64,000 nucleotides of DNA. Source: Chloracidobacterium validum (GTDB taxonomy: Bacteria > Acidobacteriota > Blastocatellia > Chloracidobacteriales > Chloracidobacteriaceae). How positions within the stretch are numbered: the stretch's first letter is position 1; every line of letters begins with the position of its first letter. The stretch is from NCBI RefSeq assembly GCF_018304825.1, contig NZ_CP072649.1:496001-560000 (forward strand), in the 5' to 3' direction. Under the pieces are notes generated by a model that did not search any database, was not told the DNA's origin, and saw only the letters and a program-made list of their open reading frames with translations. Both the position numbers and the translations under genes were made by a program. This document shows positions 7,123 through 19,737 of this stretch, one piece after another.

Positions 7123-8364
7123 GTGCACGTCAGCCAATTTCTCTCGTTGGCCCGGCAACGTCGCTTCGACTTGCAGCAAGCCCTGGCTGCCCTGCCGGCT
7201 GAATTTGCCCGCCATGACGCGCGTCGGCAGGAGCTTCAACAACTGCGCGAACAAACGCTTGACGAACTGGCGCAGGTCAACCTCCCAACCCTTGATCAAC
7301 CAGCACTCAACGCCGTTGAAGCGTGGACCGGCTATGGCCGCTTCCGAGGCCTCAACCTGACCGACTACCTCGCGCGTGAGCAGAACCGCCTAACCCAACG
7401 TGCTGCCGAAATCAGGGCCGATGCGCGTTTCATCCGGCGACAGGAACTCCTCGACCCAACCGCTGGAGAACTGACGCTGCGGGCCAAACAAGCGGGTGAT
7501 GAGCTGACGCTGATTGAGAGTGGCTTGCAACGCTATGAGCAGGAACCGGATTTCGTGAGCCTGTACCGGCGTGGCTACCGCACGCCCAGCTACCGGCAAA
7601 GTATCCTCACCTTGCAGTACTACAAAGACTGGAAGCGCGGCGACGAGATTACAGAAAAGTTTGGCTGCAAGGCGTTTTCCGAGGTGCGCGCCGCGTATGA
7701 GCATCTGTTGCGCGGGCGTGAGGTCTGCCAGAAGACGCTCCAGGGCATTGAAGGCGAAATCCAGGACGTGCGTCGGTTGATCGCCGAACTCAATGAAACT
7801 CAGCGCCGGTTGGCCGACCTGCCGGCATTTGTGCTGGCAGACTTCCGCCGGATGCTGCGCGAGCATCTCGCTTTCGCCAATCGGGAGCAACTGTTTCAGT
7901 GGGCAGGTGGTGATCGCGTGCGCGAGTCACTGATCAAGCGGCTTGACGGCATTGAAAAGCAACTCGAGTACACGACAGCCCTGGCCGGACGGCAACTGAA
8001 TGAAGAGCGGCAGTACTTGACAACCGAGATTGGCAAGCTGGAGCGGAAGCTGACCAAGTTTTCGCGCCCGAAGTATGCGGGAACACAGCTTCGTCCGGCG
8101 GATGCGCAGTCCTGGTTGCGCGACCCGCGTGAACGATTGGCGGCACGGCGCCAGCGATTCTGGCGGGACTACGACCGGGTGGCCTATTACGACCGTTACG
8201 ACCGCTACGATTTTGCTTCCGATCTGTTGTGGTGGGATGTCATGACCGACGGACGCCTGGACGGCGACTTTATTCCCGAAGTGTATCAGTATCGGCAAAT
8301 GCATCCGGGCTATACGTATCAGTCTCCGACCGAACCTTATCGTTACGGAGTGGACGTGTCATGA
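7123..8364 (+). CDS. Unrecognised 413-aa coiled-coil protein
   Basis: I do not recognise this family. The protein is rich in Q, R, E and L with long helical stretches (residues about 10-75, 80-120, 180-320) that look like coiled coils; no signal peptide or membrane segment is seen. The last 70 residues change character and are tyrosine- and aspartate-rich (YDRVAYYDRYDRYD, then LLWWDV). The GTG start at 7123 is preceded by AAAGGG. It is the first gene of a compact operon with a MurG-like glycosyltransferase and three radical SAM proteins: its TGA overlaps the next ATG (ATGA at 8361-8364), implying translational coupling. A scaffold or partner role for the operon's product is inference only. 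Confidence 0.7.
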   Translation: MHVSQFLSLARQRRFDLQQALAALPAEFARHDARRQELQQLREQTLDELAQVNLPTLDQPALNAVEAWTGYGRFRGLNLTDYLAREQNRLTQRAAEIRADARFIRRQELLDPTAGELTLRAKQAGDELTLIESGLQRYEQEPDFVSLYRRGYRTPSYRQSILTLQYYKDWKRGDEITEKFGCKAFSEVRAAYEHLLRGREVCQKTLQGIEGEIQDVRRLIAELNETQRRLADLPAFVLADFRRMLREHLAFANREQLFQWAGGDRVRESLIKRLDGIEKQLEYTTALAGRQLNEERQYLTTEIGKLERKLTKFSRPKYAGTQLRPADAQSWLRDPRERLAARRQRFWRDYDRVAYYDRYDRYDFASDLLWWDVMTDGRLDGDFIPEVYQYRQMHPGYTYQSPTEPYRYGVDVS

Positions 8365-10172
8365 CGCGGGCGCTGACGGTCGTGGCTTATGCCGTCAATG
8401 GGGCCGGCGTCGGACATCTGACGCGGACGCTGGCCGTGTTGCGCTGGATGCGCCGGTTGGCGTTGTGCGCCGGCCGGCGGCTGGATGCCTACGTGCTGAC
8501 GACGTCTGAGGCGGGTCAACTTGCGCTGCGTGAAGGTTTCGCAACGTTCAAGTTGCCGAGCAAAACGGTCGTGCGAACGGCTGGTCTGCCAAAGGACGAT
8601 TACCTGCGTCTGGCGCGCCAGTGGGTCTGGCACAGCCTGGGGTTACTCAATCCTGACCTCCTGCTGGTGGATACCTTTCCGGGCGGCACGTTTGGGGAAC
8701 TTGGCCCGGCGCTGGATATGCCGGGCCGCAAGATGTTCATTCACCGGGCCGTGCGAGAGGGGTTTGACGCGGCCGGATTTGCCGCTTGGCTGCCGTACTA
8801 CGATCGAATCCTGAGCATCGTCGAGCCAGGGCTGGTGGAACAAGCATCTGATAACGATATTGATCTCGACGATTTTGAGACGGATGCCGCCGCGTGGCAG
8901 GCCGGCGCCGGGCAAGTTGGTGAGCAAGCCGACGACATGCAAGGCACGGATGGCGCGCCTCCACCATCCGTGTGCGCCCCGGTATTCCCGGCAGTCGTTC
9001 GGTCACGGGTACGTTGCGTGCCGCCCATCCTGCTCCGCGAGCCAGATGAGCGACATGACCGGGCAACGGCGCGACGGCGACTGGGGGTGCCCGATGATGC
9101 TTTTGCGCTGTGGTTGAGCGCCGGGGGCGGAGGCGATGCTACCGCCGAGCGTACCCTCACGACGCTCATGGATGCGCTGCTGCCGGAACAGGATATCCAT
9201 CTGGTGGTTGGGGCAGGTCCGTTGTTTACCGGCAGTCCGCGCCGGGGGGCACGAATCACTTGGCTGACCGAGCCGTTGGCGGCCGAGGATTTCGCCGGAC
9301 TGGATGCGGCCATTTCGGCCGCCGGGTTCAATACTACCTACGAGCTGCTTTCCATGGGCGTCCCGACGGCACTCTTTGCCCAGGAAAAAATAGCTGATGA
9401 CCAAGCGGCCCGTCTGGCACGGGCCGTTGCGGCCGGAGCCGCGCTCCAGTTACCGGCGCGCGCCACCGGTGAGCCGGATACGTCCGCATTGTCCGGACTG
9501 CTCGCGCGCCTCCGTGACGAGTTCACGCGGGAGCGCCTGGCGGCGCGGGCGGCGGCGTTCGTGCTGCCGGATGGGGCGCGGCAGGCCGCCACGTACGCCC
9601 TACAACTCCTGCTCGACCAGTCCGAACTCCAGGCGGCGGCGGCCCGCGCCACACCCCGCCTGTGTCGCTGGCTGGAAAGCCACCGTCCCGATGCGGGTTT
9701 GCTGGCGCGGCTGTGGGCAGTGACGTCGGCTGTGACCGATGGCGATGATCTGGCTGAGTGGCTTGCCACTGTCCCCGATAGCTTCACCGTGGATGAGGCG
9801 CTGACATTTTTACGCCGCCTGCCGCCGCCGACTGATGCGGCTGACCTGGAAGCCGCTCTGACACTGTGGGGGCGGCTGGCAACTGCCCTAGAGGCGTTTG
9901 TAGATGACCGCGCGCGGGCGGCTTTTCTGCGGCATCTGCCATGGTCGCGGCGGGTAGCGCCCGATGATCAAGTCCGGGTGCTGACGCGCTTGTTGGTGGC
10001 GGCACACGGGACGGGTGACAGCCTCTACCGGGTGCTGGGCGTCGTGGAGCGGCACACGGCCGGGGCCGAACAGGATCCATTTCGCTGGCTGGCCGGGTTG
10101 GTGGCCGCCGCTGAGGAGGTGCAGCATGGGGTTGCCCTGGGCGCGTCAACAACGCTGGCAGGGGATTGCTGA
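8361..10172 (+). CDS. MurG-like glycosyltransferase with C-terminal extension
   Basis: A 603-aa protein. Residues 1-110 form a GT-B N-terminal half (YAVNGAGVGHLTRTLAV, then DLLLVDTFPGG) and about residues 230-420 a GT28-like C-terminal half with LWLSAGGGGDA, a variant of the donor-phosphate loop, and AAISAAGFNTTYELLSMGVPTALFA, the conserved nucleotide-sugar-binding turn. The last 180 residues are helical and unrecognised. Between the halves lies a low-complexity Asp/Gln/Gly stretch (residues about 160-200) that contains a copy of the 19-base dispersed repeat at 8839. The start overlaps the preceding stop by four bases. It probably transfers a sugar from a nucleotide donor to an unknown acceptor made or modified by the following radical SAM enzymes. 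Confidence 0.72.
   Translation: MTRALTVVAYAVNGAGVGHLTRTLAVLRWMRRLALCAGRRLDAYVLTTSEAGQLALREGFATFKLPSKTVVRTAGLPKDDYLRLARQWVWHSLGLLNPDLLLVDTFPGGTFGELGPALDMPGRKMFIHRAVREGFDAAGFAAWLPYYDRILSIVEPGLVEQASDNDIDLDDFETDAAAWQAGAGQVGEQADDMQGTDGAPPPSVCAPVFPAVVRSRVRCVPPILLREPDERHDRATARRRLGVPDDAFALWLSAGGGGDATAERTLTTLMDALLPEQDIHLVVGAGPLFTGSPRRGARITWLTEPLAAEDFAGLDAAISAAGFNTTYELLSMGVPTALFAQEKIADDQAARLARAVAAGAALQLPARATGEPDTSALSGLLARLRDEFTRERLAARAAAFVLPDGARQAATYALQLLLDQSELQAAAARATPRLCRWLESHRPDAGLLARLWAVTSAVTDGDDLAEWLATVPDSFTVDEALTFLRRLPPPTDAADLEAALTLWGRLATALEAFVDDRARAAFLRHLPWSRRVAPDDQVRVLTRLLVAAHGTGDSLYRVLGVVERHTAGAEQDPFRWLAGLVAAAEEVQHGVALGASTTLAGDC
8839..8857 (+). repeat. Copy 1 of 19-nt dispersed repeat
   Basis: AACAAGCATCTGATAACGA, identical over 19 bases to 11198-11216. 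Here it encodes part of QASDND in the low-complexity linker of the glycosyltransferase. It belongs to a looser family centred on CTGATAAC found at least ten times in the window. Confidence 0.6.
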
Positions 10173-11259
10173 AGGACGGACGCTCGTTGGGCCACAAACC
10201 GTTCATGTGGACCTAGCCAACGGCTGTAACACGAACTGCACGACCTGCTGGGATCACTCGCCGCTGCTGTCTCAGCCACGCTCAGTGGACTGGAAGCGGA
10301 AGCTTTTTAGCCTAGAGCGGTTCAGGACACTGGCTGCCGACCTCGCTGGACTGCGTTCAGTTGAAGCCGTGATTTTATCGGGCATGGGCGATCCGTTTGT
10401 TAATCCGGCAATCTACGACATCATTGCCGAGTGCAAGCGGCAGGGGTGGCATGTGACCGTTTTGACGAATGCGCTGTTGGCCGATGCCGACCGGATTGCC
10501 GCCCTGGGGGTGGACGCAATGCTGGTGTCGGTCAACGGCGTGAGTCCGGCGTCCTACGTGGCGTTTCATCCAAACTTGCGTCCTGCTGATTTTGAACGGT
10601 TGAAAGCGTTGCTGGCACGGTGGCAAGCGCTCGGCGTGCCGGTCAAGCACGTCCAGGTCATCAACCGTGACACGGCGCCGGAGCTGGTGGACATGGTGCG
10701 CTTTGCCGCGCGGTATGGCGCACGGCAGGTGACCTTCAAGTTGGCCAGCCTAGGCCAGGGCACCGAGGCGTGCGCCATCACGGAAGCGCAGCGCCGGGAT
10801 TTACAGACGCGGCTCGTCCCGGCTGCACAGTCGCTGGCAGCACGGTTGGGTGTGGCAACCAATCTGGAGGTTTTTGCCCATCAGCTCACGGCGGACGGGT
10901 TGGCAACGACGCCGATTGAAGCCGTAGGGTGTTTCATGGGTTGGCACTACGCTCGGATCACGGTTGAAGGTGAGCTGCTGTATTGCTGCGCGGCCACGCT
11001 CAGGGTCGGGCATTTGGATTGGGGAACGTTTTCGTCCCAGTGGTTTGGAGCGCAGTGGGAGGCGATGCGGGCGCGTTTGATGGCGGGGCAGTATGCGGAA
11101 GCCTGCCACCAGTGCGGGAAATTCAACCAGAACGTGAAGGTGGCGCGGAAGGTACGGGCGCAGTTGGGGGAGGGGGTCTATCGAGCGCGGACGGGACAAC
11201 AAGCATCTGATAACGAAAATTCTTCGCCTTACCCGGCACTGCCGGTTCCGGTTGCGTAA
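10126..11259 (+). CDS. Radical SAM protein 1 with SPASM-like C-terminus
   Basis: A 377-aa radical SAM enzyme: the [4Fe-4S]/SAM motif is C34-x3-C38-x2-C41 (CNTNCTTC), and ILSGMGDPFVNP is the GGE-like SAM-binding strand. A C-terminal cluster region contains GCFMGW, LLYCCAAT and ACHQCGKF, resembling a SPASM/twitch auxiliary iron-sulfur domain. The start at ATG 10126 has a perfect GAGGAGGT site and lies inside the end of the glycosyltransferase gene (47-base overlap), so the two are translationally linked. The tail after VYRARTG is encoded by a copy of the dispersed repeat (11198) and looks like an added, non-conserved extension. The substrate is unknown; SPASM enzymes often modify peptides. Confidence 0.82.
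   Translation: MGLPWARQQRWQGIAEGRTLVGPQTVHVDLANGCNTNCTTCWDHSPLLSQPRSVDWKRKLFSLERFRTLAADLAGLRSVEAVILSGMGDPFVNPAIYDIIAECKRQGWHVTVLTNALLADADRIAALGVDAMLVSVNGVSPASYVAFHPNLRPADFERLKALLARWQALGVPVKHVQVINRDTAPELVDMVRFAARYGARQVTFKLASLGQGTEACAITEAQRRDLQTRLVPAAQSLAARLGVATNLEVFAHQLTADGLATTPIEAVGCFMGWHYARITVEGELLYCCAATLRVGHLDWGTFSSQWFGAQWEAMRARLMAGQYAEACHQCGKFNQNVKVARKVRAQLGEGVYRARTGQQASDNENSSPYPALPVPVA
11198..11216 (+). repeat. Copy 2 of 19-nt dispersed repeat
   Basis: Identical over 19 bases to 8839-8857 in the same operon. It encodes QASDNE in the C-terminal tail of radical SAM protein 1, in the same reading phase as copy 1. Outside the 19 bases the two copies diverge. Confidence 0.6.
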
Positions 11260-11269
11260 GGGAGGCGCT

Positions 11270-12112
11270 ATGCCACCACGTCCGACAATTGAATGGCAGA
11301 CCAACGGCGTCTGTAACTACGACTGCTCGTACTGCATTCAGTCCCGGAAATACCGGCAGGGTCATCCGTCGGATGCTGACATTGACCGTTTTTTGGCGTT
11401 CTTTGCCGACTTGCCGGGCGTGTGGGAAATCAAGATGTCGGGTGGCGAGCCATTTGCTTTCCGGGGCTTTATGGAGCGCATCATCCCTGGGTTGGCCACG
11501 CTCCCGCATCGGGTTTCGGTGCTGACGAATTTCTCCGCGCCGCTCGGCGTGCTGCGGCGGTTCGTGGCGCTGGTGGGCGACCGGCTGGAGGTCGTCTCGG
11601 TGAGTTTGCACCGGGAATATGTTGATGTTGGGGCTTTTGTGGCCAAGGCCCGGACGTTCCGGTCCTGGCTGCGGCCGGAAACTGCCTTTGTTGTCAACAA
11701 TGTGCTGGTTCCCGGGACGGTCGCCGAGTTGGCCGCCGTCAAGGCCGAAGTCGAAGCTGCCGGCCTGAAGTACTTTCCGCAGGTCATGAAGACCAAGCAT
11801 GGTGTCCATGCCTATGACGCGGAGGAGTTGCCACTCGTCCAAGCGATCACCGGGGCGTGTCCGACGGCGCGCGAGGCAAACGTTGCGCCATCCTATCGTG
11901 GGCGGCGCTGTTGGGCCGGGACGGCCTATTTCGTTCTAGACCAATTTGGTCGGGCTTTTGCGTGTCGCACGGCAAAGCGGTTTGGTGAAGGGTACTTGGG
12001 GAACGTGCTGGATGGCACATTCCGTTTGGCGCCAGGGCCGGCGGTTTGCCGGTATGACATTTGTCCCTGCACCGTGCCGGCCAACCGTGGGATCGTTGAG
12101 CTTGGAGCGTAA
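11270..12112 (+). CDS. Radical SAM protein 2
   Basis: A 280-aa radical SAM enzyme with C15-x3-C19-x2-C22 (CNYDCSYC) and EIKMSGGEPF as the GGE motif. It is a paralogue of the next gene: both share HREY at mid-length, a CWAG motif and a C-terminal C-x4-C-x-C (CRYDICPC here), which probably ligate an auxiliary cluster. ATG 11270 follows GGGAGG and sits 10 bases after the previous stop. Because radical SAM enzymes 2 and 3 are side by side and similar, they may act as a heteromeric pair or in successive steps on one substrate. No precursor peptide gene was recognised. Confidence 0.82.
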   Translation: MPPRPTIEWQTNGVCNYDCSYCIQSRKYRQGHPSDADIDRFLAFFADLPGVWEIKMSGGEPFAFRGFMERIIPGLATLPHRVSVLTNFSAPLGVLRRFVALVGDRLEVVSVSLHREYVDVGAFVAKARTFRSWLRPETAFVVNNVLVPGTVAELAAVKAEVEAAGLKYFPQVMKTKHGVHAYDAEELPLVQAITGACPTAREANVAPSYRGRRCWAGTAYFVLDQFGRAFACRTAKRFGEGYLGNVLDGTFRLAPGPAVCRYDICPCTVPANRGIVELGA

Positions 12113-12133
12113 CCTGTGGAAGGAGACGATGCG

Positions 12134-13006
12134 ATGACGACCCAGTTGCCGCCGCGTCCGCCGGAAGGCGTTGTCATGTGGAACTTGAACACGACGTGCA
12201 ACTACCGGTGTTCGTACTGCACGCAGCGGTTTCTGGACGACCGGACGCGCTGGGCCCGCGATACACCGCGCTTTCTGGAGGGGTTTCGCCGGTTGCCGGG
12301 GCGGTGGGAAATCAAGCTGTCCGGTGGCGAGCCGTTCCTGCATCCGACGTTGATGGAAGTGGTCGCTGCCCTGGCCAAGATGGGCCACCGGGTCAGTGTC
12401 GTGACCAACTTTTCGGCTTCGGTGGACAAGCTCGACCACTTCCTGGCAGCGGCGGGAAGCGCACTGCGCGTCTTTTCCGCCAGCTTGCACCGTGAATACG
12501 TCAGCACGGATGAAGCCTTGGCGCAGTTTCTTGAGAAAGCCCGGTACGTCTTGTCCCGCTTGCCGGCCGGCGCAACATTCAATGTGACCTGTGTGGCCAC
12601 ACGGGCTAACCTGCCAGAGCTTCCGGCGCTGGCGCAGCACTTTGCGGCTGCCGGCATTCGCTTCAAAGTTCAGCCCGAAAAACAGAACCGCGATGTCATT
12701 CCTTACACTGTTGAGGAGCAGGCCCAGCTTGTGACGCTTGGCGGCCACAATGACCTAGGTGTGATTGCGCCGTCGTTTGAGGGGCAACCCTGTTGGGCGG
12801 GTGCATTGGCGTTCACACTGGACGACCGCGGCGCGGCCTGGCGGTGCTACCCGGCCCGGCGCTACCGCCGCGAATATCTGGGTAACTTTTTGGATAGTAC
12901 GTTTCAGCTCTACGACCTTGCCCGTCCGTGCCAGTATGCCTACTGCAACTGCACTGTTCCCATTGAACGCGGCATGATGGCAAGTCTGGGCCGGCGGGGA
13001 GGCTAG
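12134..13006 (+). CDS. Radical SAM protein 3
   Basis: A 290-aa paralogue of the preceding protein, with C22-x3-C26-x2-C29 (CNYRCSYC), EIKLSGGEPFLHP, a CWAG motif and the C-terminal CQYAYCNC matching the C-x4-C-x-C of its neighbour. The start was set at ATG 12134 after AAGGAGA; an in-frame GTG at 12116 would add six residues but leave a poorer site. Twenty-one bases separate it from the previous gene, and its TAG ends one base before the next ATG. As for its partners, the substrate is unknown. The pairing of two twitch-like enzymes with one SPASM-like enzyme and a glycosyltransferase suggests a sugar- or peptide-tailoring pathway. Confidence 0.82.
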   Translation: MTTQLPPRPPEGVVMWNLNTTCNYRCSYCTQRFLDDRTRWARDTPRFLEGFRRLPGRWEIKLSGGEPFLHPTLMEVVAALAKMGHRVSVVTNFSASVDKLDHFLAAAGSALRVFSASLHREYVSTDEALAQFLEKARYVLSRLPAGATFNVTCVATRANLPELPALAQHFAAAGIRFKVQPEKQNRDVIPYTVEEQAQLVTLGGHNDLGVIAPSFEGQPCWAGALAFTLDDRGAAWRCYPARRYRREYLGNFLDSTFQLYDLARPCQYAYCNCTVPIERGMMASLGRRGG

Positions 13007-13007
13007 T

Positions 13008-13469
13008 ATGAAGTTCAGAACATTTTTGGCGTTGGTCATTACTGGTGGCTTCGTTTTGTTTGCTGGAATCGTTGGTTCGTGCGTGTGGTTGGTCAACCGG
13101 GAGTCAGTGACGTCACCGGCGGCCCAGCCGCCGACGCCATCGGCTGCGCCGCAGTCGCCGCCTCTCCCGGCAAGCGACGGCAAGCTGCGTCCGGTGGATC
13201 GTGACCTCCTGGAAGCGCTGCGCCGACCGGCGACCACCGACCGCATCAAGGATGCCTTTCCCGGTCGTCCGTACAAAATCAGCCTGTACTGCGATACGCC
13301 GGGGCAGGGTTGGAATCGAGCCAAAATTGACCTCAACCGGAACAACAAGTGGGATGAAAAAGTTACCATCGTCAACGGCGAGCCAACCAAGCGAGCCGTG
13401 GCGTCGCGGGATGATGAAAACTACGATGTGGAGTATCGCTGGCGTGGCGGCCAGTGGGTTGCGAAGTGA
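13008..13469 (+). CDS. Small membrane-anchored protein of the radical SAM operon
   Basis: A 153-aa protein with an N-terminal hydrophobic segment (residues about 5-30, FLALVITGGFVLFAGIVGSCVWLV), a Pro/Ala/Ser-rich spacer to about residue 55 and a folded C-terminal part with KIDLNRNNKWDEK. That last motif resembles a calcium-binding dockerin or EF-hand-like Asp loop (DLNRNNKWD). It starts one base after the stop of radical SAM protein 3, after GGGAGG. I do not recognise the family. Its anchored, outward-facing topology makes it a candidate substrate, acceptor or carrier for the operon's chemistry, but that is inference. Confidence 0.7.
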   Translation: MKFRTFLALVITGGFVLFAGIVGSCVWLVNRESVTSPAAQPPTPSAAPQSPPLPASDGKLRPVDRDLLEALRRPATTDRIKDAFPGRPYKISLYCDTPGQGWNRAKIDLNRNNKWDEKVTIVNGEPTKRAVASRDDENYDVEYRWRGGQWVAK

Positions 13470-13616
13470 AGGATTGTGCGTGATGACAGGGATGGTTGGG
13501 TTCTCTTGTGGTGGATGCCAACGGTATAGACCTTACGTTAACCGCCGATGAATCGCTCGGCACAGGTCCCTGAAAACCACGACCGATGGCAAGCGGTCAA
13601 AACCAATGGGCACGTA

Positions 13617-13645
13617 CCCCGTCCGCAAGGGCGGGGTTTGTTTTT
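13617..13645 (+). terminator. Rho-independent terminator of the radical SAM operon
   Basis: CCCCGTCC (13617-13624), tetraloop GCAA, then GGGCGGGG (13629-13636), followed by a T-rich run TTTGTTTTT. An eight-pair GC stem with one G-T pair and the T-tract on the plus strand fits an intrinsic terminator for the operon ending at 13469. The rest of the 13470-13865 gap holds no gene I can support. Confidence 0.8.
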
Positions 13646-13865
13646 CCCGACCGATCCCGAAGCCCCGCCAGCGACTGGTCAAGAGCTGGTCAGGAGGATG
13701 TTGCGGACGCGCGCGGACGAGGGATTTCAACTGAATGACCGGACAGCCAGCGCCAGAAAGCAAAAACTTGCTGGACAAGCCAGGCAAAGTAGATTGCCTA
13801 ATTGATGTGCCTTCGTAATAGTAGGTTTAGAAAAAGCAAGATACCTTCATCAAAGGGGTATGGCT

Positions 13866-16127
13866 ATGCTGCTGCCGTCACGCCGTCTGTCTGTCGCCAA
13901 TCTACTTGCCGTCCAGGTGGTTGCCGCTCGCGTTGCCGCTGGCGTTGTTCTGTGCCTGGGCATGGCGGGCGTCTGGGGGTGGGCGGTCATCCAGCGTGGG
14001 TTGACGTCTGCTCACGCCCAGACTCAGGCGCCCCAGCCACCACCGAGGGGCTGCGCTATGCCTGGCGGTTCGACTCAGGTGTTGACCTCGTCTTACTACT
14101 GGGTGGCGTCAGACGTGGAAACCACCTTGCTGCTCAACAACAAGAGTCCGCAGCCGTTGACCGTGCAGCCGACGCTGTTTGCGCTGGATGGGCGGCGGCA
14201 TCGCGCCCCACCGCTGACCATCGCGGGGCAGTCGTTTCGGGTCGTGCCGTTGGCGGAGCTTGGAGCGCGGGAAGGGACGGCATTTGGGAGCGGGAGCGTG
14301 GCGTTGGCGTTTGAAGGGGCGCCATTGGTGCTTGGGGCGCAAGTGGAGATGAAGGATCGGCGTGGACGGTTGGTGAGCGACCGGCTGTCGGATGCGCGGG
14401 TGAGTTTGGCGACGACTTGGTTGGCCGGGGTGTATCGGCTGCCGCGGGGTGGGGCGCTGAAGGTGGCGGTGACGAACGTGACAGAGCGGCCGGTGGGGGT
14501 GCGGGTACGTGTGGATGGGAAAGATGGGAAAGGCGTCCGGTTTGAACTTGGGGGGCGGGCGACACGGTTGGTAGATGTTGGGTTGGCGTTGGGGGAGGTG
14601 CCGCGGTCTGGAGGCGTGGTGGTGGAGAGTGATGAGGTGGGTGCGGTGCGAGCGAATGGGTGGGTGTGGAACGCGGCTGGGTATGTGAGTGTGGTGTCGT
14701 TCATGGATTTAGGGCGTGCCAGGGATGGGGTCTGGCATGCGAATGGGGTCCGGGTGCGACCGCTGGTGAAAGGGAAGGTGACGCCATACGTGACAGTTCA
14801 CAACTTTGGCGCTCGGGAGAGCGAGGTGAGGGGGTGGTTGGTTGGACGGGTTGGGGAGGCGATGGCGCGGCGGGAGTTGGAGACGGTGCGGTTAGGGGCG
14901 GGCGAGACGCGGACGCTGGCGGTGGTTCTGAGTGAGGAGGAGCGGCGTGGGATGCAGATAGCCGGGATCGAGTTGGCGTATGGGAGTGGGGCTGGGACGA
15001 TTGGGGCTGCGGTAGATGTGGAGCGGGAAGATGGGGCGCGAGGGTATCGGGTGCCGGTGGTGGATCGGGAGATGATTCCGAGCGCGACGGGGAGTTATCC
15101 GGTGCGGTTGGGGATGGATGAGAACACGGTGGTGTATTTGAAGAACACGACGGACAAGGAAGTGCGGTATCACGCTTCGGTGCGGTTTGAGCGTGGGGAG
15201 GACTATGGGTTTGGGCAGGCGAAGCTGGGGCCTGGGGAAACGGTGATGATTGACTTGAGGAGGGTGGAATTGATGGAGCAGCCGGACGCGCGTGGGGAAC
15301 GGATGCCGTCGTGGTGTGAGCGGGGGCAGTTTTTCTGGTCGGTGCAGGGTGTGGAGACGAAAGGGATGGTAGGGCGGGCGGAGTATCTAGACTCCAGGAC
15401 GGAGGCGAGCAGCACGTATGCTTGCTACAACTGCTGTGGGGATTTGTTTGGGAGTGGGTGGATTACCGGTCCTGGGGCGCTTGGGGTGACGCAGGTACGT
15501 CCCTACCGGGCTTTTGAGCAGTACCTGACGTGTTATGGTGGGCTTCACGTTCCGCAACTGGCGTGGGTACAGACGTGGGAGTACAGTTCGGCGAATGGGG
15601 CTGGCGCGGTGGTGCAAGCTGGACAGTCGGAAGCAGAAGTCTCAGGAAACCACATTGGCGAGATGGCCTTGTTGGCGAGATGGACGGCGTATGACTGCAA
15701 TCTAGGCAGTTTCTGGCACACTGCGTGGTTTCCGGTGCAAGTAAAACCGTTGGTGACACTTCAAAGTGTCGGTCCCTTCAATCCGGCCACCATCACAGCA
15801 GGCAATACCTCGAAGTGTCGTGTCACGGTCAGTGTCGATGGCTTCACAGCGAACTTAACATCACTCAGTGTCAGTGTTAACGTTGTCAAGCAAAATATGA
15901 TTGGATTCGGACAGGTAAGTGTTCCTCAACCGCACCGCACAATTAAGGTCTTCGCGAGTCAGGCCACGAAGTCTGAGGAGGTTGAGTTTGTAAGCCAATT
16001 TGACATCAACATGACCGATGTAGTGACGGTACGGGGGCAGGCCAGGATTGTGCCAAGCCCTGATTACGTTATCGAGCCGCCAGACGTAAAAGTCAGTCCT
16101 GATCGTCTCACCGTCAACAAGCCGTAA
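13866..16127 (+). CDS. Unrecognised 753-aa secreted protein
   Basis: Begins with basic residues and a long hydrophobic segment (about residues 10-45, ending AHAQ), read as a signal peptide. Residues about 60-480 are rich in Val, Gly, Arg and Glu with beta-strand-like alternation (for example GALKVAVTNVTERPVGVRV). A Cys cluster, YACYNCCGD, lies near residue 520 and a Thr/Ser-rich beta C-terminus follows. No catalytic motif was found. The ATG at 13866 sits better behind AAAGGGGT than the ATG at 13860. From about 14270 to 15420 the coding strand is very G-rich with GTG, GGG, TTG and GCG codons, unlike its neighbours. The role is unknown; surface or adhesin-like is a guess. Confidence 0.72.
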   Translation: MLLPSRRLSVANLLAVQVVAARVAAGVVLCLGMAGVWGWAVIQRGLTSAHAQTQAPQPPPRGCAMPGGSTQVLTSSYYWVASDVETTLLLNNKSPQPLTVQPTLFALDGRRHRAPPLTIAGQSFRVVPLAELGAREGTAFGSGSVALAFEGAPLVLGAQVEMKDRRGRLVSDRLSDARVSLATTWLAGVYRLPRGGALKVAVTNVTERPVGVRVRVDGKDGKGVRFELGGRATRLVDVGLALGEVPRSGGVVVESDEVGAVRANGWVWNAAGYVSVVSFMDLGRARDGVWHANGVRVRPLVKGKVTPYVTVHNFGARESEVRGWLVGRVGEAMARRELETVRLGAGETRTLAVVLSEEERRGMQIAGIELAYGSGAGTIGAAVDVEREDGARGYRVPVVDREMIPSATGSYPVRLGMDENTVVYLKNTTDKEVRYHASVRFERGEDYGFGQAKLGPGETVMIDLRRVELMEQPDARGERMPSWCERGQFFWSVQGVETKGMVGRAEYLDSRTEASSTYACYNCCGDLFGSGWITGPGALGVTQVRPYRAFEQYLTCYGGLHVPQLAWVQTWEYSSANGAGAVVQAGQSEAEVSGNHIGEMALLARWTAYDCNLGSFWHTAWFPVQVKPLVTLQSVGPFNPATITAGNTSKCRVTVSVDGFTANLTSLSVSVNVVKQNMIGFGQVSVPQPHRTIKVFASQATKSEEVEFVSQFDINMTDVVTVRGQARIVPSPDYVIEPPDVKVSPDRLTVNKP

Positions 16128-16347
16128 AAATTCATTGGCAACGCTTAGCTCCGGTGCCTGAATCTGACGGTGCTTCGCGCTGAACTATCGCGCTTGGAAT
16201 GCAACCGGCAGGTGCGACGGCGCGCAAGGCAAGTGTGGCTAGCTGGCGATGGTTTTCACTTGAATGCCGGCTATCAACCACATCACAGCCGGTAGGAGGG
16301 TGCGCGCGCACACTGAGACAGGGCTCGAACAGTTTGATTGAATCCTT

Positions 16348-16388
16348 TTAAGTGTATGCAATACTCTATTAAGTGTATGCAATACTCT
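16348..16388 (+). repeat. Tandem 20-nt repeat at IS607 left end
   Basis: ttaagtgtatgcaatactct occurs at 16348-16367 and again at 16369-16388, a 21-base period, about two helical turns. In IS607 elements short subterminal repeats bind the serine transposase, so this is the probable TnpA site. It also overlaps the tnpA promoter region, which begins six bases before the start codon. Confidence 0.7.
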
Positions 16389-16393
16389 GCAAT

Positions 16394-17021
16394 ATGGAGA
16401 GATTCGTAAGCATAGGTAAAGCTGCTTCGGCGCTGGGCGTGTCCAGCACGACTCTGCGCCGCTGGGAGGCGTCGGGCAGGCTGGCCGCAGAACACACGGC
16501 GGGCGGCCATCGCCGCTCCGACCTCGCCAAGCTCAAGCCCGAACTGTTCCGCGCTGCGGTGGACCCGCAGCGCCGCACCGTGGCCTATGCCCGTGTCTCA
16601 AGCCACGACCAGACGGATGATCTGGAGCGGCAGAAACAGGTGCTGGAAACTGTACTGCGCCCGCCAAGGCTGGACATTCGAGGTCATCGCTGATCTTGGC
16701 TCCGGCATGAACTACCACAAGAAAGGCTTGAAGAAGCGGCTGGAGGCCATCATCGATGGTCAGATCGGGCGCTTGGTGATCACGCCCAAAGACCGGCGGC
16801 TGCGGTTTGGCGCGGAACTGGTGTTCGCCATCGGCGAAGCCAAGCAGGTCGCGGTCGTCATCCTGAATCAAGGCGAAGACACGACGTTCGAGGAAGATTT
16901 GGCCAAGGACGTGCTGGAAATCATCACGGTCTTCTCGGCCAGGCGGTACGGCTCGCGCAGCCGCAAGAACCAGAAGCTGCTCGATGGCGTGCGGCAGGCG
17001 GTGGAGGCATCGCAATGCTGA
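16394..17021 (+). pseudogene. tnpA: IS607 serine transposase, frameshifted
   Basis: Residues 1-85 in the first frame give a MerR-like helix-turn-helix (FVSIGKAASALGVSSTTLRRW) and the serine-recombinase active site YARVSSHDQTDDLERQ. After QKQVLE the frame breaks. The downstream frame resumes with YCARQGWTFEVIADLGSGMNY and runs through the rest of the catalytic domain to 17021. The break coincides with an A-run at 16647-16649; removing one A restores one continuous protein of about 209 aa. The element is therefore likely unable to transpose alone, unless slippage on the A-run makes some full-length protein. The last codons overlap the tnpB start. Confidence 0.85.
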
Positions 17022-18217
17022 TCGCCCACAAGGTCGCGCTCGATCCGAACAACGTGCAGGCAACGTATCTGGCACGGGCGGCGGGCACGGCGCGTTTTGC
17101 CTATAACTGGGCGCTGGCCGAGTGGCAGCGGCAGTACGAGACATGGAAGGCTGACAACGGCCAGCCCAAGCCATCGCAGGCTGCGTTGCGCCGCCAGTTG
17201 AACGCCATCAAGCGCAAGCAATTCCCCTGGATGCTGGAGGTCACGAAGAACGCGCCGCAGATGGCGATCATCCAGTTGGGGCAGGCGTTCCAGAACTTTT
17301 TCGCAGGCCGCGCCCGCTATCCGCAGTTCCGCAAGAAGGGCGTGGATGACCGTTTCACGCTCACCAATGACCAGTTCAGCATCGAAGACTCGCGCATACG
17401 CATCCCCAACCTAGGCTGGGTGCGCATGCGCGAGTCGTTGCGCTTCGCTGGCAAGATTATGTCGGCCACGGTCTCCCGGGTGGCCGACCGCTGGTTTGTC
17501 AGCATCACCGTGGATACCAAAGACCATTCGCACCTGCCCAAAGCCGAAAACCAAGGCGCGGTGGGCGTGGATTTGGGTGTTGCGGCGCTGGCAACGCTCT
17601 CGACGGGAGAGGTCAGCGACGGCCCGAAGCCGCACAAGGCGCGGCTGGCCCGGTTGCAACGGCTCTCGCGCAGTCTGAGCCGCAAGCAAAAAGGATCAGC
17701 CAATCGCAAGAAGGCAAAGGCAAAGCTGGCGAGACTGCACGCCCGCATTGCCGCGATCCGCTTTGACGCCTTGCACCAGCTCACGACAAATCTCACGCGC
17801 CGGTTTCATACCATTGGCATCGAGGATTTGAACGTGCGCGGGATGGCAAAGAACCGCCATCTGGCCCGCTCCATCGCCGATGTGGGCTTCTTCGAGTTCC
17901 GGCGGCAACTGGAGTACAAGTCGGCGATGCGTGGCGGCGTGGTGGTGGTCGCCGACCGCTTCTATGCCAGCAGCAAGACGTGTTCGGACTGCGGACACAA
18001 GCTCGCAGCCCTGCCGCTGGCCGTGCGGGAGTGGACGTGCCCGGCCTGCGGAATGCGCCACGACCGCGACGTGAACGCTGCGATCAATCTGAAGAACTTG
18101 GCCGTGAGTTCCACGGTGTCAGCCTGTGGAGAGGAAGGCTCTGGCTCCGGTCGCAAGACCGGAGTGAAACCGGCCGCGGTGAAGCAGGAAGCAAGCCGCA
18201 GATTTAGTCAGAAATGA
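17015..18217 (+). CDS. tnpB: TnpB RNA-guided nuclease (IS607-associated)
   Basis: A 400-aa protein, full length for the family. TnpB is an omega-RNA-guided DNA nuclease, the ancestor group of Cas12, that favours retention of its element. RuvC residues are all present: D in GVDLGVAAL (about residue 185), E270 in GIEDLNV and D352 in HDRDVNAAINL. Between them are the zinc-finger pairs CSDC and CPAC. The N-terminal AGTARFAYNWAL is the usual opening. ATG 17015 overlaps the tnpA stop by seven bases. Its coding integrity contrasts with the frameshifted tnpA. Intact catalytic residues suggest selection or recent arrival. Confidence 0.92.
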   Translation: MLIAHKVALDPNNVQATYLARAAGTARFAYNWALAEWQRQYETWKADNGQPKPSQAALRRQLNAIKRKQFPWMLEVTKNAPQMAIIQLGQAFQNFFAGRARYPQFRKKGVDDRFTLTNDQFSIEDSRIRIPNLGWVRMRESLRFAGKIMSATVSRVADRWFVSITVDTKDHSHLPKAENQGAVGVDLGVAALATLSTGEVSDGPKPHKARLARLQRLSRSLSRKQKGSANRKKAKAKLARLHARIAAIRFDALHQLTTNLTRRFHTIGIEDLNVRGMAKNRHLARSIADVGFFEFRRQLEYKSAMRGGVVVVADRFYASSKTCSDCGHKLAALPLAVREWTCPACGMRHDRDVNAAINLKNLAVSSTVSACGEEGSGSGRKTGVKPAAVKQEASRRFSQK

Positions 18218-18240
18218 CTAGATTTGTGTAGGTATTGCAG
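18130..18240 (+). ncRNA. Candidate omega-RNA of TnpB
   Basis: TnpB guide RNAs usually derive from the 3' end of tnpB and the element's right end. Here TAGTCA (18205-18210), loop GAAA, TGACTA (18215-18220) form a perfect six-pair hairpin that contains the tnpB stop codon itself, and further GC-rich complementarity (CTCCGGTCGCAAGACCGGAG, 18147-18166) gives a second perfect stem-loop. The guide would start near 18240, where the right end is placed. Position and structure fit; transcription is not shown. Confidence 0.45.
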
Positions 18241-18245
18241 AACGG

Positions 18246-19010
18246 CTAGGGAAGTTGATTGCGGATGGCATACACCATTTCCTGAAACTCCTCGGCTGAC
18301 TGTCCGGCAAACGACTCCAGGTTGGCGCGGGCTTGCTGCCGAATCCGTTCGCGCTCGCGCCCACCGGCAAACTCATATTGCGAATAGGTCGCGGTGGCGA
18401 GAATGGCCAGCGACTCGGCCAGGATTTGGCGCTCGCGGTCGTCCGAAGCCAAGAAATCTTCGTCGGTGAGGAGGATTTCCTGGAACTGCTCGTAAAGCGC
18501 ATAGGGGACGCCCGGTGGCATCGGGGTGCCGAAGACGATGGTGTAGTGGTTGTTGAGGTAGAGCACCATAGCGGCGGCGACGTCCTCGACGGGCCAGCCC
18601 TGCTCAATCATGCCGCGCCGATACTCACGCAGGGCATCTTCATAGAACCGACGCGCGGCAACTGAGTCGCCATCCACCGATTGGGCCAGGATGCCCGGCG
18701 CCAGCATGTCGGACACCGGACGGTAGGCCGTTGTTCTGCGCTGGGGTCCGCGCCGGGGGGCGTCCGCCGGACGGACTCGGCGGCGCGTCACCGGCTGGTC
18801 GGAGAAAACGGCCCCAGCGCGGTTTTCATAGGCGCGGATTTTATCCCGCGCCGAACGGCCATTGATGGTGGGTTGACGACCGACTTGTTCGTAGTCGTAC
18901 CAGTCAGGATCGGCTGATTGACGGTCAGCCGGCCGATCTTGACCAAGGGCCGGCGCGGCAATGCTAACTATGAGCCAAATACCCAAGAGGGCGCGGAAGG
19001 CATTGAGCAT
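18246..19010 (-). CDS. Small exported protein, possibly DUF6683-like
   Basis: A 254-aa protein with a clear signal peptide (residues 1-24, LLGIWLIVSIAAPALGQ). Residues about 25-95 are basic and disordered-looking. From about 110 a helical domain follows with RFYEDALREYRRGM, EDVAAAMVLYLNNHYTIV and FQEILLTDEDFL. The AAAMVLYLNN region reminds me of DUF6683 proteins, but only weakly. The start ATG 19010 has TGAGG upstream; a longer frame exists but would bury the signal peptide. The stop is 6 bases past the inferred IS607 right end, so the insertion happened just downstream of this gene. Function unknown. Confidence 0.7.
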   Translation of the reverse strand: MLNAFRALLGIWLIVSIAAPALGQDRPADRQSADPDWYDYEQVGRQPTINGRSARDKIRAYENRAGAVFSDQPVTRRRVRPADAPRRGPQRRTTAYRPVSDMLAPGILAQSVDGDSVAARRFYEDALREYRRGMIEQGWPVEDVAAAMVLYLNNHYTIVFGTPMPPGVPYALYEQFQEILLTDEDFLASDDRERQILAESLAILATATYSQYEFAGGRERERIRQQARANLESFAGQSAEEFQEMVYAIRNQLP

Positions 19011-19038
19011 GACGACTACCTCACAAGGCGACTGAAGT

Positions 19039-19737
19039 TCAAGCCAAGTCGAAGAGCATGATTTCACTTTCGGCGGCGGCGTCAAAGGCAAGGTCGCGCT
19101 CCGCACAAACGGCCAGACCATCGCCGGCCTGGAGCGCGTGTCCGTTGACCGTGACCATTCCGCGCAGGACTTGTACCCAAGCGTATCGTTCGGGAGCAAG
19201 GCTGTGGTTGGTCGTTTCACCGGGTGCGAGCGTTGCCAGCCAGATGGACGCATCCTGGTGAATGGTGAGTTCGTCCGGTTGGGCCTTGCGGGCCGCGATG
19301 CGTTGAAACGCTCCGCGGGGCGGGTTGTCGCGCAGTGACGTTTCTTCGTAGCTTGGCGTCAGTCCCGCGCGTTCGGGCAGAATCCAGATTTGGACGAGAT
19401 GGATGGGTTCGGTGGCCGAGGCGTTCATCTCGCTGTGGCGGACGCCGGTTCCGGCTGTCATGCGCTGGAGTCCGCCGCGCTCCAGAACGGACGTATTGCC
19501 CATGGAGTCGGTGTGCCGCAGCGCGCCATCGAGGACATAGGTGATGATTTCCATGTCGCGGTGGCCGTGCATGCCGAAGCCGGCGCCGGGCGCGATGCGG
19601 TCTTCGTTGAAGACGCGCAGGGCGCGGAAGCCCCGCCAGCGTGGGTCGTCATAGTTGGCGAAGGAAAAGGTATGGCTTGCAGCGAGCCAGCCGTGGTTGG
19701 CGTGGCCCCGTTCCCAAGCTCTGCGAACGGTCAACAT
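19039..19737 (-). CDS. Pirin-family bicupin
   Basis: A 232-aa pirin (YhhW-like), close to the usual length of about 230. The metal-binding set of the N-terminal cupin is present: HGHRDMEI supplies two histidines and RHSEMN the third histidine and the glutamate. Some pirins have quercetin 2,3-dioxygenase activity; others act as redox or transcription cofactors, so the reaction is not fixed. ATG 19737 follows AAAGGAGAC. It lies 64 bases downstream of a MarR regulator on the same strand; MarR-pirin pairing is common and suggests control by that regulator. A palindrome TCGTT-CA-AACGA sits in the gap. Confidence 0.92.
   Translation of the reverse strand: MLTVRRAWERGHANHGWLAASHTFSFANYDDPRWRGFRALRVFNEDRIAPGAGFGMHGHRDMEIITYVLDGALRHTDSMGNTSVLERGGLQRMTAGTGVRHSEMNASATEPIHLVQIWILPERAGLTPSYEETSLRDNPPRGAFQRIAARKAQPDELTIHQDASIWLATLAPGETTNHSLAPERYAWVQVLRGMVTVNGHALQAGDGLAVCAERDLAFDAAAESEIMLFDLA

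Follow-up and report, generated by a model that had tools for sequence, protein, structure and literature searches.

In the stretch of the Chloracidobacterium validum genome analysed here (the window, 64,000 nucleotides, spanning bases 496001-560000 of NZ_CP072649.1, the second, 1.0-Mb contig of a two-contig genome of 3.66 Mb), six consecutive forward-strand genes, P1 to P6, were found whose content, order, co-inheritance and cysteine motifs are conserved; they are nearly certainly one functional unit and not a chance neighbourhood. They encode an alpha-helical, coiled-coil-like protein (P1), a likely glycosyltransferase (P2), three radical S-adenosylmethionine (SAM) enzymes (P3, P4 and P5, or rSAM1, rSAM2 and rSAM3) and a small, putatively exported protein (P6). 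The unit probably makes or matures something for the cell surface, and is tentatively read as a radical SAM/glycosyltransferase maturation system with exported P6 as its end point.

Conservation of the six-gene unit

The first-pass annotation had proposed a single operon, and its six open reading frames (ORFs), the ATGA overlap of P1 and P2 at 8361, the 47-base overlap and the gaps of 10, 21 and 1 bases were all recovered at the positions claimed (spacings from P1 to P6 of -4, -47, +10, +21 and +1 bases). The proposal was borne out by relatives, in which the gene order is conserved, recurring with overlaps or short gaps in several lineages, far beyond chance. As to the strong terminator suggested at 13617, a good intrinsic-terminator-like hairpin does lie 3' of P6 (13616..13637, forward strand; 9 pairs, 7 of them GC, with a T-rich tail), but terminator-like sites are no more numerous in the region than in shuffled sequence. 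No sigma-70-type promoter was found, a negative that carries little weight in this phylum.

Among 147 relatives, searched with P4 first and then with profiles of the other proteins, P1 was found in 10 genomes, each of which has P2 as well, and G062 has a shorter stand-alone P2 relative; P3, P4, P5 and P6 accompanied P1 save in three genomes with contig-end cases (G002, G008 and G013). The set was absent from the approximately 130 other genomes of the class, where weak generic radical SAM matches only were obtained (E-values and trees here rest on few sequences). The order P1-P6 was kept in the six same-genus genomes wherever the contig was whole. In other relatives the cluster is split: in G007, P1-P2-P3 lie together, P4 begins 3 kb further downstream and P5-P6 are on a separate contig; G009 has three places (P1-P2-P3, P5-P6 and P4); and G011 has P1-P2 on one contig and P3-P6 on another. 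Since all six genes were kept after the cluster broke into such pieces ({P1,P2,P3}/{P4}/{P5,P6} or {P1,P2}/{P3-P6}), a joint function is supported more strongly than by adjacency alone. One further carrier from outside the class, G788, was found in a sample of 396 Acidobacteriota, with the six genes in order (locus L121) and about 0.8 kb separating P5 from P6; that stretch (L121 13899-14713) might either encode a small protein of its own or extend P5 at the C-terminus. The genes for rSAM3 and P6 were adjacent in every genome where both were readable.

When the rSAM1 alignment was scanned against 84,980 species genomes, eight loci were obtained, among them L091, from an acidobacterial metagenome-assembled genome (MAG), and L092, from a Gloeobacterales MAG, each of which has the complete set in unchanged order. 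A search of relatives of the latter genome yielded G172 and G216, where the operon lies inside contigs of 2.84 and 3.16 Mb. As the Gloeobacterales MAG, G172 and G216 carry PsbA/PsbD-type reaction-centre genes, they are cyanobacteria; the operon is rare in that phylum, given that no further carrier was found in a sample of 386 cyanobacterial genomes. The same six genes in the same order were thus present in the relatives of the window and at L091, L092, L110, L111 and L121, with spacings of -4, -11, -1, -17 and -14 bases in L092, -4, -8, 53, -4 and 16 in L091 and -1, -4, -4, -11 and 3 in L110. Identity of L091, L092, L110 and L111 to the window was 25-39% for P1, 41-47% for P2, 52-62% for P3, 55-70% for P4, 57-64% for P5 and 37-49% for P6. 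That the six are unrelated genes compactly packed, as the two or three loci of some relatives might suggest, is refuted by the identical order in Acidobacteriota and Cyanobacteriota and by all-or-none co-occurrence, and its probability is negligible.

In phylogenetic trees, rSAM2 and rSAM3 formed two fully supported groups, each with Acidobacteria and cyanobacteria, so that their duplication predates the spread of the operon. The three cyanobacterial copies grouped together in the rSAM1 and rSAM2 trees (support 95/94 and 95/85), but not in the rSAM3 and glycosyltransferase trees; several branches are long. The unit, its content and order conserved across two phyla, was apparently transferred horizontally on at least one occasion. 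That the Gloeobacterales MAG is contaminated was judged less likely, because the rSAM1 and rSAM2 trees place it beside two genomes that bear PsbA and have the operon on near-complete contigs, with the caveat that the other two trees lack this grouping. Viral or plasmid carriage was rejected: no rSAM3 relative was found in viral contigs, and plasmids gave remote STM4011 and remote glycosyltransferase relatives only, with no rSAM1 or P6 match. Phototrophy, to which the hosts had pointed, was also rejected as a requirement, as BchN, present in the window genome, G001 and G008, was absent from G007, G009, G011, G148 and G788 (some of them drafts), all of which have the six genes. The G008 record (locus L088, contig JAAFHI010000250.1) is titled Actinomycetota, yet its contig holds the acidobacterial operon and the genome a BchN-like gene, and it is probably a mislabelled, possibly phototrophic acidobacterium.

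The three radical SAM enzymes

P3 (10126..11259), P4 (11270..12112) and P5 (12134..13006) all scored above cut-off for PF04055 (Radical_SAM), and the CxxxCxxC motif was found in every orthologue (14/14 for rSAM1, 13/13 for rSAM2 and 13/13 for rSAM3), the core reading CNTNCTTC in P3 and CNYDCSYC in P4. Further cysteines were equally constant: C-x12-G-x4-C-x39-C-x2-C in 14/14 rSAM1 sequences (x40 in G788), C-x12-G-x4-C-x27-C-x4-C-x-C in 13/13 rSAM2 sequences, and the same pattern in 13/13 rSAM3 sequences (x29 in G788), identical between P4 and P5 in the window. The paralogy of radical SAM 2 and 3, proposed from their common C-terminal C-x4-C-x-C, agrees with 41% identity between P4 and P5.

The SPASM motif is CX9-15GX4C-gap-CX2CX5CX3C-gap-C, and its short form, Twitch, binds one cluster (PMC6231123, PMC9012708). 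The seven-cysteine motif was found in none of the three proteins, rSAM1 having C-x12-G-x4-C plus C-x2-C, and rSAM2 and rSAM3 C-x12-G-x4-C plus C-x4-C-x-C. PF13186 matches rSAM1 at 24.9 bits against a cut-off of 21.5, as expected of a truncated SPASM domain, and the rSAM1 profile matches the auxiliary domain of BtrN in the PDB (E = 0.004). The earlier description of radical SAM 1 as SPASM-like is therefore right for the four-cysteine first half, but the region is of Twitch type and not a full SPASM. Judged by cysteine spacing, rSAM1 carries a BtrN-type Twitch pattern and rSAM2 and rSAM3 a SkfB-type one (Cx12Gx4C, CXC about 32 residues on, CX4CXC; a SkfB/PqqE-like auxiliary-cluster pattern), which gives P3-P5 one putative Twitch-type auxiliary Fe-S (iron-sulphur) site each.

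NCBIfam served as the main test of whether these enzymes are already known, and no named family was reached. The nearest to rSAM1 include the protein and metalloenzyme maturases TIGR04317 and TIGR04311, with 68.5 bits over the core only for the first (tungsten-oxidoreductase radical SAM maturase; cut-off 380). For rSAM2 and rSAM3 the best full-length match was STM4011 (NF038073), at 49.6 and 57.2 bits against a cut-off of 200, and none of its STM4011-STM4015 partners (the radical SAM protein STM4012, the hydrolase STM4013, STM4014 and STM4015) occurs here, the partners being all different. No radical SAM member thus belongs to a named single-step family (best scores of 50-69 bits versus cut-offs of 200-380). 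The first-pass annotation had named two outcomes that would refute it, a gene order not conserved in relatives and membership of each radical SAM protein in a well-known single-step family, and neither was observed.

A role in defence, with an altered nucleotide as the product of viperin-like radical SAM enzymes, was considered on account of matches of PADLOC pVip models to rSAM1-3 (4e-16 to 2e-8). These matches are core-only, and the NCBIfam viperin model (NF038283) likewise gave 48.6 bits, over the core only, versus a cut-off of 180. Moreover, no nucleotide kinase was found nearby, the copies that were read had no defence genes next to them, and viperins are not known to have the Twitch cysteines, so that a defence role is very improbable.

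Partner proteins and the candidate target

Pfam gave only below-threshold matches of P2 (8361..10172) to Glyco_tran_28_C, in 6/12 members (best E = 0.0024). In the structure predicted for P2 (like the other predictions, from a six-sequence alignment; mean predicted local distance difference test score, pLDDT, 72.5), residues 2-421 matched GT-B enzymes with Z = 18-21, the top ones being GtfD, GtfA and CalG1; VIA-align gave Z = 21.1 for GtfD and 18.7 for MurG over about 300-330 residues, and Foldseek matches had E-values down to 4e-6. Four GT-B-like motifs were invariant in 12/12 members (GHLTR within GxGHLTR, AGGGGD, SAAG..ELL and Q.K.AD.Q), and the His of the first sits where GT1/GT28 enzymes keep their catalytic His. 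On the predicted model and these motifs the GT1/GT28-like GT-B fold of P2 is regarded as settled; that P2 is a transferase using a nucleotide-sugar donor is likely rather than certain, since UDP-GlcNAc 2-epimerases have the same fold. The C-terminal 180 residues were predicted with high confidence as an all-helical domain. A shorter P2 relative of about 30% identity, comprising the GT-B part only, was seen in two other cyanobacteria (L112 6406-9357 and L113 6567-9481), directly 3' of a TPR-containing membrane protein, in what appears to be a different conserved pair.

P1 (7123..8364, 413 amino acids) has no named family in Pfam or NCBIfam; a coiled-coil match to LmuB, like single low-E coiled-coil matches in individual members, was set aside as compositional. 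Its conserved part is a C-terminal segment, YDxYD...WWDVMTDGRxDGxFIPEV, and the orthologues in G172 and G216 start with an additional membrane segment and arginines after it, which suggests a cytoplasmic helical protein able to sit at the membrane. This segment (WWxxMT(D)GRxDG..IPEV) could itself be the target, so that P1 rather than P6 would be modified: P1 is first in the operon, always adjoins P2 and keeps the aromatic/Asp segment in an otherwise divergent sequence. Yet P1 is a long protein, by sequence a cytoplasmic one, and of the six it varies most across phyla (25-26% in G172 and G216); moreover, the ATG of P2 overlaps its last codons and so partly dictates its final Ser. Modification of P1 is accordingly improbable.

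No family and no PDB sequence match were found for P6 (13008..13469), whose orthologues have 145-175 amino acids, comprising an N-terminal membrane segment or signal peptide, a Pro-rich linker and a C-terminal beta-meander domain. As its N-terminal hydrophobic segment is preceded by basic residues and, in G172 and G216, ends in a signal-peptide-like manner (AYAQS/AYADS-type cleavage site), the predicted topology is that of an exported protein, whose C-terminal domain should lie outside the cytoplasm. The domain (residues 60-153) was predicted as one helix and six strands with pLDDT of about 95. Its best PDB matches, to beta-sheets of TarM, GtfA, SdgB and OspA, were too weak to use (Z = 6.9 at most, short of the value that would rule out a common arrangement), and the OspA/TarM likeness was set aside (Z < 8), as was an apparent P6 homologue in G116, a chance match within a metallo-hydrolase-like ORF. 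The membrane anchor and Asp loop described earlier were both seen, although the loop (DLNRNNKWDE in the window, DLDKDNRWDE in G216, consensus WNRxKIDxNRNxxWDEK) looks like a Ca-binding-type loop, and its Asp/Asn exchange, typical of such loops, speaks against the loop residues as radical SAM targets.

In the proposed mechanism P1-P5 would be cytoplasmic, with P2 and P3-P5 probably held together at the membrane by helical P1; P2-P5 with P1 would perform radical-based modification and glycosylation of one target. The likeliest target would be P6, modified before or during Sec-type export by analogy with QhpD and QhpC, and modified P6 may then act at the cell envelope via its Ca-loop beta domain. 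That P6 could be the modified substrate, as the first-pass annotation had suggested, is favoured by its constant position beside rSAM3 and by the lack of any other conserved small ORF; it is the only exported product and the unit encodes no exporter, as expected if P6 is the product. In addition, the best GT-B matches of P2 include enzymes acting on peptide aglycones of glycopeptide antibiotics (GtfD and GtfA), C-x4-C-x-C is the pattern of SkfB, a peptide-modifying Twitch enzyme, and maturases of proteins and metalloenzymes are among the named families nearest to rSAM1. Several observations weigh against this reading: no RRE/PqqD-like leader-binding domain was scored by Pfam in the six proteins, even with matches of E up to 1 admitted (a scan of this kind misses divergent RREs); the conserved residues of P6 are accounted for by a folded metal-loop domain, with one orthologue showing N-to-D exchange, and need not be targets; no Cys is conserved in mature P6; P4 is in some genomes located far from P6; and the usual acceptors of GT1/GT28-type enzymes are small molecules or lipids.

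A close rival is a small-molecule pathway, in which the Twitch enzymes would act by oxidation or rearrangement on an intermediate (a sugar, a cyclitol, a nucleotide or a lipid), P2 would glycosylate it, P1 would be a scaffold and P6 would be an envelope protein that binds or anchors the product. BtrN, which the rSAM1 auxiliary domain matches, is a dehydrogenase acting on a small molecule (PMC9012708), the closest folds to P2 are natural-product and nucleotide-sugar GT-B enzymes, the rSAM2 and rSAM3 cores weakly resemble nucleotide-acting viperins, and there is neither an RRE domain nor a peptide precursor. However, all core likenesses are generic for radical SAM barrels, the unit holds no exporter, sugar-nucleotide enzyme or amino-transfer enzyme, and the constant rSAM3-P6 pairing is left unexplained. 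A small-molecule product is thus a serious if doubtful possibility, and P6 maturation is placed slightly ahead of it.

A separate precursor was also sought. No small ORF conserved between lineages other than P6 was found in the 2-kb flanks or the gaps, and gene gaps of only -17 to +3 bases in L092 and L110 leave no room for a hidden one. No precursor typical of ribosomally synthesised and post-translationally modified peptides was therefore recognised, there being no conserved short peptide within 2 kb or in the gaps, and P6 being a protein of the length given above with a folded domain. The unit likewise encodes no transporter, regulator or conserved peptide precursor.

Because flanks vary among genomes on both sides, P1 and P6 are taken as the operon borders. 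The genes upstream of P1 differ between the window and other genomes. Within a few kb of P6, G001, G003, G004 and G005 have a convergent gene homologous to the one at 18252-19064 (reverse strand) in the window, where it is separated from P6 by about 4.8 kb (13470-18251), an interval shorter or differently filled in those four genomes. In the window this interval holds an orphan protein of 755 amino acids (13860-16127), with a signal-like N-terminus and no Pfam family, and an IS607/TnpB-type element (16373-18217), consisting of a serine recombinase in two frames (16373-16693 and 16587-17021) and an OrfB/TnpB-like gene (17015-18217; OrfB_IS605, Cas12f1-like TNB). The P5-P6 pair of G009 has, 2-5 kb upstream (L029 5424-7692), an apparent DUF692 (MNIO-type) gene, assigned to its family by eye, beside the gene of a protein whose tail consists of Ser/Cys/Gly repeats (SSCGGGSSCGGG...); the two may form a separate peptide-modification pair.

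Relation to described systems

The earlier statement that no described pathway has this gene set held in the open-access literature, subscription journals being mostly outside its scope. The closest system to rSAM2 and rSAM3 by motif is SkfB, the sactisynthase of the sporulation killing factor, whose cluster is held by CX33CXC (PMC6231123); both enzymes share with it the radical SAM core and C-x4-C-x-C, with CX32CXC here in place of CX33CXC, and PqqE likewise uses a CXC. In contrast to SkfB, they lack an N-terminal RRE and are about 120 residues shorter, phmmer similarity extends over the core only (E = 0.024), and neither a short precursor nor SKF-type export genes are present. BtrN, the 2-deoxy-scyllo-inosamine dehydrogenase, is a Twitch radical SAM enzyme that oxidises an aminocyclitol (PMC9012708). 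The C-terminal region of rSAM1 aligns to its auxiliary domain, with four invariant cysteines in a Twitch arrangement, but overall sequence similarity is weak and no aminocyclitol pathway lies near the operon.

The mycofactocin cluster also pairs a SPASM/Twitch radical SAM enzyme with a glycosyltransferase, MftF, which is reported to oligo-glycosylate the product (PMC7491314). It has one radical SAM enzyme versus three here, the match to the MftC model was marginal, and no MftA-like precursor, MftB or MftD was seen in the unit. MftF is, besides, a GT-A-fold family-2 enzyme, whereas P2 has the GT-B fold by prediction. A possible model for P6 is offered by the biogenesis of quinohemoprotein amine dehydrogenase, in which the radical SAM enzyme QhpD modifies the small protein QhpC (PMC7876137). 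The modification of QhpC is at cysteines, which are not conserved in mature P6, and no quinoprotein subunits occur here. QhpC is exported to the periplasm after modification, as would be the case for P6.

It is rather unlikely, though conceivable, that P6 represents a new kind of radical-modified, glycosylated envelope protein, on whose exported Ca-loop domain a protein-derived group would be built by the GT-B enzyme together with the three Twitch radical SAM enzymes; such a protein-maturation pathway would have no described counterpart and would be common to Acidobacteriota and some Cyanobacteriota. A compact unit with as many as three radical SAM enzymes is in any case unusual, and two of the six protein families are unnamed in Pfam and NCBIfam. 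As the gene order was kept across two phyla, a selected product must exist, and the presence of the operon in complete genomes makes it open to direct search. New enzyme reactions have regularly come from Twitch enzymes of uncharacterised chemistry.

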